NCBI GenBank assembly: GCA_900316015.1 | Contig: ONBG01000015.1 | Span: 1 to 63,126, forward strand | DNA: 63,126 nt | DNA from: an uncultured Prevotella sp. | GTDB taxonomy: Bacteria > Bacteroidota > Bacteroidia > Bacteroidales > Bacteroidaceae | Direction: 5' to 3' | Shown: one piece after another, positions 1 to 55,654 of the stretch | Numbering within the stretch: the stretch's first letter is position 1 | Layout of the letters: every line of letters starts with the position of its first letter | Notes under the pieces: generated by a model | Told to the model about the DNA's origin: nothing | The model's database searches: none | Seen by the model: only the letters and a program-made list of their open reading frames with translations | Position numbers and translations under genes: made by a program

Positions 1-131
1 GAAAGGACTGTAAACTTATCCGGAACGTAGCGAATAAACGTGACAACCCATTTAGTTATTAACATCAGAAGTTGTCAACTAAATCCAGTAAACTACACTG
101 TGTATTCGCGGTTTCTACAAGGCAAGAAGCT

Positions 132-241
132 GGAGATGGCCTTTTGGCACGCAGGAGATAATCTTTTGGCGCGTGAAAGATGACCTTTCGTAAGACGGGA
201 GATGACCTTTTGCAAAACGGATGATGACCCCTTACAAGGAG
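132..241. repeat. 22-bp-period intergenic repeat, locus 1 (five units)
   Basis: Five head-to-tail units of exactly 22 bp start at 132, 154, 176, 198 and 220. The first about 15 bases of each follow RRAGATGACCTTTTG and the last 7 vary. The same unit occurs at 16905-17014 and 53529-53572. Reading frames through the array give repetitive peptides that start and stop arbitrarily, so I call no gene here. The rest of 1-331 holds no convincing gene. Confidence 0.85.
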
Positions 242-403: not shown

Positions 404-559
404 TTACTTTCCGTGATTCTCATCAGAAACTGTTAACTTCTTGCGACCATGTGCACGGCGAGAAGCCAGCACACGACGACCATTCTTTGTTGCCATTCTC
501 TCGCGGAAACCATGTTTGTTCACGCGACGACGATTGTGGGGCTGAAATGTTCTTTTCAT
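404..559 (-). CDS. rpmH: 50S ribosomal protein L34
   Basis: This 51-residue, very basic protein is the L34 subunit of the large ribosomal subunit. Translation of the minus strand from the ATG at 559 gives a start of [12 protein letters not shown], then [20 protein letters not shown], which is the family signature, followed by the basic HGRKKL. The length is slightly above the usual 44-46 residues because of a short C-terminal tail (TVSDENHGK). It has its own promoter (-7 box at 603-610, -33 TTTG at 631-634) and terminator (332-360) and is divergent from efp. The gene is short enough to be missed by automatic calling. In many bacteria rpmH lies next to rnpA near the origin; that neighbour is not seen here. 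Confidence 0.95.
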
Positions 560-16754: not shown

Positions 16755-16827
16755 CGGGATTTAGCGCAGTTGGTAGCGCACTACGTTCGGGACGTAGGGG
16801 TCGGGCGTTCGAGTCGCCTAATCCCGA
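16755..16827 (+). tRNA. tRNA-Pro (CGG)
   Basis: A 73-nt cloverleaf: acceptor CGGGATT with AATCCCG, D arm GCGC/GCGC, anticodon stem CTACG/CGTAG around the loop TTCGGGA (anticodon CGG, reading CCG), variable GGGTC, and T arm GGGCG/CGCCT with one G-U pair. The C1-G72 pair fits proline tRNAs. The 3' CCA is not encoded. Confidence 0.95.
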
Positions 16828-16830
16828 CAG

Positions 16831-16904: not shown

Positions 16905-17014
16905 GGGGCTATCCTTTGGCTTTTCAGGAGATAACCTTTTAGGGCGCAGGAGATGGTCTTTCACGACGCAAAAGATTATCTATCAGGAGCCAAAAGGTTA
17001 CCTTTTGCCTTTTT
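16905..17014. repeat. 22-bp-period intergenic repeat, locus 2 (five units)
   Basis: Units start at 16905, 16927, 16949, 16971 and 16993, each exactly 22 bp, with the same RRAGATGACCTTTTG-like core as locus 1 but more divergence. The junction of the last two units (16991-17007) forms a near-palindrome, CAAAAGGTTACCTTTTG. The remaining 17015-17191 shows nothing I can assign. Confidence 0.75.
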
Positions 17015-17191: not shown

Positions 17192-18172
17192 TCAGAACTC
17201 CACATAAGGTGCTAAGCGCTTGATGATATCCGGGGGGAACGACCGGAGGAGACGCAAGTCGTCCCAACCATGGATAGGACCTCTTAGGCGACGGTAGTCA
17301 ATGACATCCTTTGCCCGGTAAAAGCCCATATAGGGATGTACCCGAAGTTGGCTCAAGGTCATCGTATTGAAGTTGAGTTTCCTGATGTTCTCGTCTGAAA
17401 GAGAGAAGTAATGCTTGGCATCAGGAGGGAATCCCTCGATTTCATCCAACTGATCGATATGGCAATACCCGCCAAGCCGCTCACGATACCAGACAATCCG
17501 CCGTGCATAATAGCTCCCAATGCCGGGCACCCGCATGAGCAAAGTGGTGTCTGCCGTGTTCAAAGCCACCCGTTCCGTTGGTCGTAACTTCGGGGTATAA
17601 TGGAGAGAAGCCGTCCTGTCTGCTCCCGTTGAGGCCATCCCGGCCCCTCCAACATCTGTAGCGGGATAGGAATGATCACCTTCTCTACCGTCCCTGTAGG
17701 TTTCGCGACTGTATCCATACACTTCCGATGCCGGGCGATAATCCTCCCCGATCCGGATATAGGGTTCCAACTGCCGGTATTGCTTCACTGTCAGCCCATA
17801 CAAGCGAGCGAAATCAGTTGGCTTGCGATAGACACCGCCAGCCGCGCGATACCGATAGATAGTCCGGACTTGCCAAGGTTGAAGTCCCAAGCGTAAGAAT
17901 TGCGTGCTGTCTGCTGTGTTCGGGTCAAAAGGAAACAACTCATACCGTCTACCCTCAACCTGATAATAAGGCGGACGAGACCCTGTTTGCCCTCTTCCCC
18001 TCCCGCCTGCGGTCTGCCCATTCCATGGGGTATCTCCATACGGAGCGGACGCCTCGGGAGACGGATCCCGGACAACAAACACGAGTGTCAGCGAAGCGAC
18101 GGCCATCACCAACAACACAATCAAGACCGAACGGTCCGATTTCCTAATATAGAAAAACTCTCTCCAATCCAT
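17192..18172 (-). CDS. Membrane-anchored helix-hairpin-helix protein
   Basis: The 326-residue protein has one N-terminal transmembrane segment (about 16-35) and then ComEA-like helix-hairpin-helix modules. These are around FDPNTADSTQFLRLGLQPWQV (about 80-140), ALNTADTTLLMRVPGIGSYYARRIVWYRERLGGY (about 215-255) and the C-terminal FNTMTLSQLRVHPYMGFYRAKDVIDYRR (about 270-320). Such modules bind DNA without sequence preference, so a role in DNA uptake or in handling DNA outside the cytoplasm is possible but not shown. No competence pilus genes lie nearby. It sits downstream of two symporter genes on the same strand, after 141 nt that contain a long inverted repeat. Confidence 0.85.
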   Translation of the reverse strand: MDWREFFYIRKSDRSVLIVLLVMAVASLTLVFVVRDPSPEASAPYGDTPWNGQTAGGRGRGQTGSRPPYYQVEGRRYELFPFDPNTADSTQFLRLGLQPWQVRTIYRYRAAGGVYRKPTDFARLYGLTVKQYRQLEPYIRIGEDYRPASEVYGYSRETYRDGREGDHSYPATDVGGAGMASTGADRTASLHYTPKLRPTERVALNTADTTLLMRVPGIGSYYARRIVWYRERLGGYCHIDQLDEIEGFPPDAKHYFSLSDENIRKLNFNTMTLSQLRVHPYMGFYRAKDVIDYRRLRGPIHGWDDLRLLRSFPPDIIKRLAPYVEF

Positions 18173-53492: not shown

Positions 53493-53528
53493 ATAAATGC
53501 CCAAGAAATTCCTACCAAACAGGAGGCT

Positions 53529-53572
53529 GGAGATGACCTTTTGGAAAGCCGCAGATGACCTATTTGAAACAC
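53529..53572. repeat. 22-bp-period intergenic repeat, locus 3 (two units)
   Basis: Two consecutive 22-bp units (53529-53550, 53551-53572) share the core AGATGACCT with loci 1 and 2. They lie between divergent promoters, about 55 bp upstream of the gyrB -33 region. Confidence 0.75.
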
Positions 53573-53683: not shown

Positions 53684-55654
53684 ATGGCAGAAAATCAGAA
53701 CGTAGAAAATAACTATTCAGCCAAAAACATCCAGGTGCTCGAAGGGCTTGAAGCCGTCAGAAAGCGTCCGGCCATGTATATTGGTGACATCAGTGAGAAG
53801 GGACTTCATCATCTGATCAACGAGACCGTCGACAACTCTATTGACGAGGCAATGGCTGGTTTCTGTAAGAACATCGAGGTCACCATCAACGCAGATGGCT
53901 CCATTACCGTACAGGATGACGGTCGAGGCATCCCTGTCGACGAGCATAAGAAGCTGCATAAGTCGGCATTGGAAGTCGTCATGACGGTCCTGCACGCAGG
54001 AGGAAAGTTCGACAAAGGATCCTACAAGGTCAGCGGTGGTCTGCACGGAGTGGGTGTAAGCTGCGTTAACGCCCTGTCTTCTCACATGAAATCACAGGTA
54101 TTCCGGGATGGAAAGATCTACCAGCAGGAATATGAGAAGGGAAAGCCGCTCTACCCTGTGAAGGTCATCGGCACCACGGAGTTACGCGGTACGCGCCAGC
54201 AGTTCTGGCCAGATCCCACGATTTTCACGACAACGAACTTCAAATGGGATATAGTGGCCAGCCGTATGCGGGAGTTGGCATACCTGAACGCAGGCATCAA
54301 GATCACGTTAACCGACCTGCGTCCGGATGAAGATGGCAAGACACGACAGGAGGTCTTCCACGCCAAAGACGGACTGAAGGAGTTCGTCCGCTACGTAGAC
54401 CGCCATCGCACCCATCTCTTCGATGATGTCATCTACCTGAAAACAGAGAAACAGGGCATCCCTATCGAGGTGGCAATCATGTACAACACGGATTATTCGG
54501 AGAATATTCATTCCTACGTCAACAATATCAACACCATAGAAGGCGGTACTCATCTGACCGGTTTCCGCGCTGCCCTGACCCGCGTCCTCAAGAACTACGC
54601 GATAAATGACCCACAGATCTCCAAGCAAATCGAGAAATCGAAGATCGAGATTGCACCGGATGACTTCCGCGAGGGACTGACTGCCGTCATCTCAATCAAG
54701 GTGGCAGAGCCGCAGTTCGAAGGCCAGACGAAAACGAAATTAGGCAACAGTGAGGTTGCCGGTGCCGTACAGCAGGCTGTCGGCGAGGCCCTGACAAACT
54801 ACTTGGAGGAGCATCCGAAAGAGGCAAAGATGATCTGCGACAAGGTCGTCCTCGCGGCTACGGCTCGCATCGCGGCTCGCAAGGCCAGAGAAAGCGTGCA
54901 ACGCAAGAACCCGATGACTGGAGGAGGATTGCCGGGCAAGCTCGCCGACTGTTCAAACAAGGACCCCAAGGAATGCGAGATCTTCCTCGTCGAGGGTGAT
55001 TCCGCAGGTGGCTCAGCCAAGCAGGGGCGCGACCGTTACACACAAGCGATCCTTCCGCTCCGCGGTAAGATCCTGAATGTAGAGAAAGTGCCTTGGCATC
55101 GCGTCTTCGAGGCTGAGTCCGTGATGAACATTATCCAGAGCATTGGCGTCCGCTTCGGAGTGGACGGAGAAGGTGACAAGGAGGCGAACATCGACAAACT
55201 GCGGTATGACAAGATCATTATCATGACCGATGCCGATGTCGATGGTTCCCATATCGACACCCTGATCATGACATTGTTTTACCGCTTTATGCCCAAGGTC
55301 ATCCAGGAAGGTCATCTATATATCGCCATGGCTCCCCTGTATCGATGCACCTACAAGAAGGTATCAGAATACTGTTACACAGAACAGCAACGCCAGGCGT
55401 TCATCGACAAGTACGTCCAAGGCAACGATGACGATAAGGCTTTGCATACCCAGCGATACAAAGGATTGGGTGAGATGAACCCAGAACAGTTGTGGGAAAC
55501 GACCATGGATCCTAAGAACAGGATGCTGAAACAGGTCACCATCGAGAACGCAGCGGAAGCTGATGAGGTATTCTCCATGTTGATGGGTGACGACGTAGAG
55601 CCCCGACGGGAGTTCATTGAGCAGAATGCTACTTACGCAAATATCGACGCATAA
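53684..55654 (+). CDS. gyrB: DNA gyrase subunit B
   Basis: GyrB supplies the ATPase and TOPRIM parts of gyrase, which introduces negative supercoils. The 656-residue protein shows the GHKL ATPase motifs (ETVDNSIDEAMAG, DDGRGIPVD, SGGLHGVGVSCVNALS), the transducer lysine in the QTKTKLGN loop, the TOPRIM EGDSAGGSAKQGRDR and the acidic DADVDGSHI, and the terminal RYKGLGEMNPEQLWETTMDP. It has its own promoter and terminator. ParE is the alternative, but the sequence (QTKTKLGN, GRDR and tail) is that of GyrB. Confidence 0.97.
   Translation: MAENQNVENNYSAKNIQVLEGLEAVRKRPAMYIGDISEKGLHHLINETVDNSIDEAMAGFCKNIEVTINADGSITVQDDGRGIPVDEHKKLHKSALEVVMTVLHAGGKFDKGSYKVSGGLHGVGVSCVNALSSHMKSQVFRDGKIYQQEYEKGKPLYPVKVIGTTELRGTRQQFWPDPTIFTTTNFKWDIVASRMRELAYLNAGIKITLTDLRPDEDGKTRQEVFHAKDGLKEFVRYVDRHRTHLFDDVIYLKTEKQGIPIEVAIMYNTDYSENIHSYVNNINTIEGGTHLTGFRAALTRVLKNYAINDPQISKQIEKSKIEIAPDDFREGLTAVISIKVAEPQFEGQTKTKLGNSEVAGAVQQAVGEALTNYLEEHPKEAKMICDKVVLAATARIAARKARESVQRKNPMTGGGLPGKLADCSNKDPKECEIFLVEGDSAGGSAKQGRDRYTQAILPLRGKILNVEKVPWHRVFEAESVMNIIQSIGVRFGVDGEGDKEANIDKLRYDKIIIMTDADVDGSHIDTLIMTLFYRFMPKVIQEGHLYIAMAPLYRCTYKKVSEYCYTEQQRQAFIDKYVQGNDDDKALHTQRYKGLGEMNPEQLWETTMDPKNRMLKQVTIENAAEADEVFSMLMGDDVEPRREFIEQNATYANIDA

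Follow-up and report, generated by a model that had tools for sequence, protein, structure and literature searches.

The window (the whole stretch of DNA that was analysed, 63,126 nt from an uncultured Prevotella sp.) carries close to its first letter a tandem repeat with a 22-bp period, and the same repeat is found at two further loci. This raises the question of whether the three loci belong to a true repeat family and, if so, what such a family may be for. The original prediction was that of arrays bound by a protein, with their spacing kept by selection.

The 22-bp unit in the window and in its own genome

Each array unit consists of a near-palindrome of 17 bp, YR-AAAG-N5-CTTT-YR, and a linker of 5 bp, which together make up the 22-bp pitch. 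The predicted period is thus retained, and this description fits better than the proposed 15-bp core with a 7-bp variable end. A position matrix detects three arrays of at least two units within the window (Table 1), against one two-unit chance match in 30 Markov-simulated windows, and the repeat family is therefore real. A plain consensus scan of the window is far weaker evidence (15 matches with up to three mismatches vs. 7.7 expected). Five units had been proposed at each of the first two loci. The first locus has them and the second has four; a first unit at position 16905 has no support from the position matrix.

Table 1. Coordinates of the repeat arrays and associated features (window positions, except for the last line).
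Feature	Position	Strand	Remarks
IS3-family insertion sequence (IS), right end (IRR)	1..97	-	one of 22 copies of the 97-bp end; contig breaks here
Gap between IS end and first unit of array 1	98..129	.	32 bp, about three helical turns (locus L040)
Array 1	130..234	+	five 17-bp units at 130, 152, 174, 196 and 218 (position matrix; fifth weak, 8.5 bits)
tRNA-Pro	16755..16828	+	upstream of array 2
Array 2	16925..17007	+	four 17-bp units at 16925, 16947, 16969 and 16991 (position matrix)
Array 3	53527..53565	+	two-unit remnant (position matrix; second unit weak, 6.5 bits)
Five-unit array in genome G012	L254 1145-1245		lies past an IS3-type transposase open reading frame, about 250 bp from its 3′ end; IS end not located

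The neighbour gene of array 1, at 449..559 (-) with approximate bounds set by eye, is presumably rpmH (ribosomal protein L34). Array 2 sits between the tRNA-Pro gene and the 3′ end of an open reading frame at 17192-18172 (-). Array 3 lies ~120 bp upstream of an open reading frame that starts at 53684, which from its translation we take to be gyrB-like. A gyrB-like gene with an upstream array is also found in Palleniella intestinalis (L206). The arrays had been predicted to lie only between genes; this is so for all three window copies and, in relatives, for 58 of 76 arrays among the loci listed.

In the genome to which the window belongs, an exact 12-mer of the unit gives 33 matches and its reversed control none. 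At least one of these (L029) is a lone unit with no array. Fourteen matches are forward and 19 reverse. Since arrays point both ways genome-wide, the constant orientation that had been noted holds for the three window copies only and is a small-sample effect. The two-unit pattern (up to three mismatches) gives 376 matches vs. 2 in the control. With this excess, and with the 22-bp pitch kept at other loci, the predicted family stands.

The array set collected from this genome consists of 52 sequences from 51 loci (L130 is the same as L023), includes three near-copies and is enriched for IS-bearing arrays. Thirty-two arrays have four units, 16 have five, two have two and two have six. Units within one array are co-oriented (concordance 140 vs. 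a null mean of 69 and a null maximum of 96). When the arrays are compared with each other, core identity is 0.70 and linker identity is 0.35, vs. 0.33 expected from composition. It should be noted that the core value is partly built in, most arrays having been located by their cores; the 22 arrays that were located only through an adjoining IS display the same core identity (0.70) and a linker identity of 0.36, vs. 0.34 expected. Linker identity of 80% or more is found in none of the 231 pairs among these 22 arrays, and in 10 of 1225 pairs in the full set; the near-copies L023, L070 and L079 account for three of these. Conserved cores together with near-random linkers are the pattern given by selection on putative binding sites. 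The arrays in this genome look old.

Arrays in related genomes

The sequence AAAG-N5-CTTT at 22-bp pitch (up to one mismatch) has at least one match in 201 of 398 sampled genomes of the genus. Arrays are present in bulk, i.e. with 20 or more forward matches and a threefold or higher ratio to the control, in 61 of the 398 by a hand count from which G402, G419 and G018 were dropped. Of the 398, 197 genomes display no match to these arms at this pitch, a search that other arms would escape. Elsewhere in the order, a three-unit pattern gave a single match, in one of 158 other sampled genomes. Named carriers include Prevotella bivia, P. corporis, Palleniella muris, Palleniella intestinalis and Xylanibacter caecicola; one carrier is a metagenome-assembled genome labelled Bacillota.

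The central 5-mer of the unit is genome-specific. It is of the ATNAC type in the genome of the window, CGGCT/AGCCG in G084, CTTAC in G376, TTGAA together with TGCCA in G409 and ATGCC in G437. At the level of sequence, the preferred 5-bp centre varies between species and the arms and pitch are constant. A few genomes (G402, G421, G368, G389 and G299) have many matches to the reversed control TTTC-N5-GAAA at 22 bp, and dialects may therefore differ in their arms too.

Four is also the usual number of units in relatives. The 80 named loci listed gave at least 76 array calls (L208 accounts for two of these, being a single array called in two registers), with four units in 54 of 76, three in 14 and five in 8; Markov-shuffled loci gave none. 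The arrays had been seeded with exact 22-bp pairs, so only further units bear on the pitch. On the 152 sides of 76 such seed pairs, the unique best further unit is at 22 bp in 59 cases, at 21 bp in 7 and at 23 bp in 2; there were 17 best units elsewhere and 12 ties, and the remaining sides have no unit. An ordinary minisatellite formed by slippage would likewise have its units in tandem, but the range of unit numbers is narrow, units differ inside an array and a dialect is common to many loci, and the probability of this origin is close to negligible.

Gene context was determined with gene calls from a simple longest-ORF script. The 76 named arrays listed fall into 34 tandem, 14 convergent and 10 divergent gaps, which is near background, with 12 over short open reading frames and 6 at locus edges. 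By eye, 28 of the 34 tandem-gap arrays are closer to the 3′ end of the upstream gene, and flanking genes present their 3′ end to the array in 162 of 292 cases. Inspection by eye of cluster listings of the flanking genes revealed no recurrent DNA-binding gene family beside the arrays. Two pairs of loci, each pair from two species, display closer relationships: L192 and L203 have both flanking genes in common, and L133 and L154 have an exact array stretch in common, apparently at the same place. A conserved array position near efp was considered and rejected. Three clear five-unit arrays (L263, L265 and L284) are found among 28 loci around this gene, with different places in L263 and L284, and places differ between species where they can be determined. 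Along the chromosome, the arrays of G409 are spaced more evenly than random (at least 56 arrays up to 1.337 Mb, CV 0.73, p 0.007) and those of G084 are not (31 arrays, p 0.36); the positions in both genomes were transcribed by hand.

The position of arrays near 3′ ends, together with the palindromic units and a fold energy z of about -2 to -2.5 on either strand, would fit an RNA element, in which the units act as hairpins in transcripts (terminator or stabiliser). Within units and between them, however, the paired fraction is no higher than in shuffled sequence, the bias to convergent genes is not strong, and Rfam gave no match in the window beyond tRNAs. Binding at the DNA level is preferred to RNA folding because base-pair covariation is absent both within and between units; an RNA element appears very unlikely.

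Sites outside the arrays were also found. The motif TGATNATCA (up to one mismatch) occurs near the 76 named arrays listed with 13 matches at 21-22 bp and 7 at 33 bp from the centre of the outermost unit, and in 30 arrays of G409 a TGATNATCA-like site (up to two mismatches) gives 24 matches at 33 bp. Such sites are rare at greater distances from arrays. The longer stretch around TGATNATCA fits the IHF consensus. In the genome of the window, just 3 of 50 arrays have an IHF-like site at 22-33 bp. The G409 arrays (L290-L319) are in addition flanked by TGCATAAATATACA-like palindromes (27 near arrays and 27 in all, at 30 loci), which we take to resemble ARG boxes; none of these is found near the 76 named arrays listed.

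Copies in G409 and G084 have arms and linkers in common as well as cores, as in a spreading repeat, and array positions around efp vary between species. Because copies have these linkers and arms in common, the element appears to have spread in both genomes as a unit of ~200 bp, with two different arms in G409. The arrays might accordingly be seen as non-autonomous mobile repeats, whose palindromes would bind a transposase or recombinase in trans and which would have no host role. Against this are the conserved cores and near-random linkers in the genome of the window, which plain decay would not give. Membership in the MITEs by terminal inverted repeats was rejected: the two arms of G409 are inverted copies of each other over the innermost 7 bp only (identity 0.83, then 0.32), i.e. 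there are no terminal inverted repeats, and in the genome of the window the flanks are conserved over a few bases only. By eye, a target-site duplication was not recognised in G409. An autonomous parent element was not encountered among the sequences examined. The PINSR repeat of P. intermedia (see below) is also reported to be without terminal inverted repeats, and about three quarters of its copies are described at the same places in two strains (PMC4755523). Mobile repeats without a host role are a rather unlikely explanation. A phage origin was rejected as well, there being no array (strict exact 2.5-unit pattern) and no IS end in viral contigs; one G084 element compared with phages gave no match.

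An IS3-family insertion sequence in helical phase beside the arrays

The window opens with the right end of an insertion sequence. This 97-bp end is found in 22 copies in the same genome with 99-100% identity, each at a contig end, and in all 22 an array lies directly outside it; insertion is beside, and never inside, a detected array. By a rough estimate, arrays together with 60 bp of surroundings cover less than 1% of the genome, so the presence of arrays at 22 of 22 ends is far beyond chance.

The distances between the IRR end and the array are 8, 9 (four times), 10 (twice), 22, 23, 30 (twice), 31, 32 (five times), 33 (three times), 43 and 54 bp. They cluster near 9, 22, 32, 43 and 54 bp, i.e. 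in helical steps of 11 bp. The resultant of the gap phases is 0.84 at a period of 11 bp and 0.85 at 11.25 bp, and no value above 0.75 was obtained from 5000 random sets when the same periods were scanned. All 22 gaps fall in five of the eleven phases and 19 of 22 fall at 8-11 mod 22 (classes chosen post hoc). A cryptic further unit accounts for only some of the gaps above 28 bp. The IHF-like site and the IS insertions, as read from their positions in the sequences, follow one 11-bp grid, though in different genomes.

The association is one-ended. At none of seven left (IRL) ends does the available ~200 bp contain an array, and the highest-scoring lone unit in these stretches reaches 7.5 bits. 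There is a weak signal for a 3-bp target duplication, in that a matching IRR end exists for 5 of 7 IRL ends, vs. 2.1 by chance. The element is assigned to the IS3 family through a related element in G076 that has HTH_Tnp_1 (below cut-off) and rve open reading frames, and also by the start of its own OrfA; its interior is unassembled. The end of a different repeated element (contig C16, locus L111) lies ~50 bp from an array in the same genome and recurs at the start of two other contigs; this second repeated contig end is near an array at one of three places.

Helical phasing beside arrays is known for one IS in one genome. The IRR end has weak partial matches only, in 2 of 148 other genomes, and relatives of the IS3 OrfB are found in 8 of 28 array-rich genomes, where ten of the 11 loci examined are without a full array, L254 being the exception (Table 1). 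These numbers bear on the explanation that the IS transposase alone reads the array, so that phased insertion would reflect its own DNA binding with no host protein. IS3-family elements that target REP sequences are indeed thought to select their target through their own transposase, according to the text available of PMC1525189. Arrays, however, are present in bulk in dozens of genomes and are thus far more widespread than this IS, which therefore cannot explain why they are retained; the transposase as sole reader seems rather improbable.

Putative docking modules and known repeat systems

The arrays are interpreted, with moderate confidence, as intergenic protein-docking modules of a Prevotella-wide family, phased IS targeting included, with a putative role in architecture. 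What has been observed comprises the arrays with their pitch and usual number of units, the dialects, IS insertions that are in phase and one-ended, and a second site on the helical grid. The originally predicted protein-bound array with selected spacing gains indirect support from the 11-bp-phased insertions, from the conserved cores with near-random linkers and from the gridded IHF-like site in relatives; the binding itself we infer.

The body of the module would typically be four dimer-sized palindromic sites with their centres 22 bp, or two helical turns, apart, on which a sequence-specific putative protein would line up along one face of the DNA and bind cooperatively. In many relatives an IHF-like bend site, recognised by its sequence and presumably bound, would lie on the same helical grid. 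In the genome of the window the IS3-family transposase may be positioned, with the right end facing the array, by the nucleoprotein complex or directly by the array DNA, and the putative protein would recruit the transposase. Insertion would then take place at a distance of about 1, 2, 3, 4 or 5 turns, counted from the last site, a step in which the phasing is observed and the mechanism is proposed. The most likely host role, and the weakest step of this scheme, would be that of a chromosome-architecture node functionally comparable to the BIMEs of E. coli, which bind gyrase and IHF. In a more far-reaching form, offered tentatively, the arrays would be genus-wide four-site operators in species dialects for one fast-evolving putative protein, which would assemble, at anything from tens to over 100 places on the chromosome, into a complex with helical order and steer transposons to fixed helical steps beside it.

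The insertions are a naturally preserved record of a transposon targeted, in helical phase, to the flank of a repeated site, and the dialects point to a putative DNA-binding protein whose specificity would differ between species. Recognition of the arrays would also help to remove doubtful small genes from annotations. A P. nigrescens hypothetical protein, K8O81_RS09665, overlaps a three-unit array (L336 37509-37565) and may be spurious. That repeats of this kind are annotated as small genes had been predicted, and agrees with this overlap and with P. intermedia, where such genes were judged to be non-coding in the portion of the report available (PMC4755523).

Two known systems serve as comparisons for the arrays and not as memberships. 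REP/BIME sequences are likewise high-copy intergenic palindromes that are targeted by IS3-family elements (IS1397, ISKpn1 and ISPsy8), and the available text describes insertion into the REP (PMC1525189). The IS of the present genome, by contrast, sits alongside an array, with its right end only, and at distances in helical steps. Spread of REP/REPIN elements through a RAYT (Y1) transposase would likewise fit repeats of high copy number that are intergenic, palindromic and an IS target. Y1_Tnp is however absent from the genome of the window, G409 and G437, and is found in 9 of 20 other array-rich vs. 11 of 21 array-poor genomes, i.e. RAYT has no association with arrays, and spread by RAYT is extremely unlikely. 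The BrickBuilt MITE of Porphyromonas gingivalis, as far as the consulted part of its description goes, is similar in having intergenic direct repeats (23 nt) with a conserved and a variable half; its elements hold between 1 and 22.8 repeats and carry a leader, a tail and IS5-like terminal repeats (GAGACC..) (PMC4596501). Membership in BrickBuilt was rejected, the arrays having a 22-bp unit, mostly 4-5 units, and no GAGACC repeat in their flanks by eye.

The closest known repeat is PINSR (Naito et al. 2015, PMC4755523). The available text describes it as a 188-bp intergenic repeat that occurs 177 times in one P. intermedia strain and 184 times in another, with no known function and no terminal inverted repeats, detected by PCR in four related species and reported absent by PCR from other Prevotella clades. 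It resembles the arrays in being intergenic, of high copy number, judged non-coding and overlaid by annotated small genes. The G084 element was compared with P. nigrescens, a PINSR species, and was found in two plasmid-collection records, with 10 places in one record of 568 kb. The best of these (81% identity over 231 bp) has four units at 22-bp pitch and an IHF-like site, the latter ~21 bp from the first unit by manual measurement. The G084 and P. nigrescens elements share arms, in contrast to the arrays in the genome of the window, which have few conserved flanking bases. From these sequences, PINSR is very probably the P. intermedia-group form of the arrays and one dialect of the family. 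The part of its description consulted mentions no internal 22-bp array, IS phasing or mechanism, and among the other papers listed on Prevotella repeats, judged by title and start of the abstract, none describes the array, dialects or IS phasing. The clade limit of PINSR (P. intermedia/nigrescens) does not hold for the array architecture, which is present in the 61 of 398 genomes of the genus and in P. bivia, P. corporis, Palleniella and Xylanibacter. The arrays are a wider variant of an already known kind of repeat, and what was an unexplained repeat in the P. intermedia group becomes a defined and much wider architecture with a testable mechanism.
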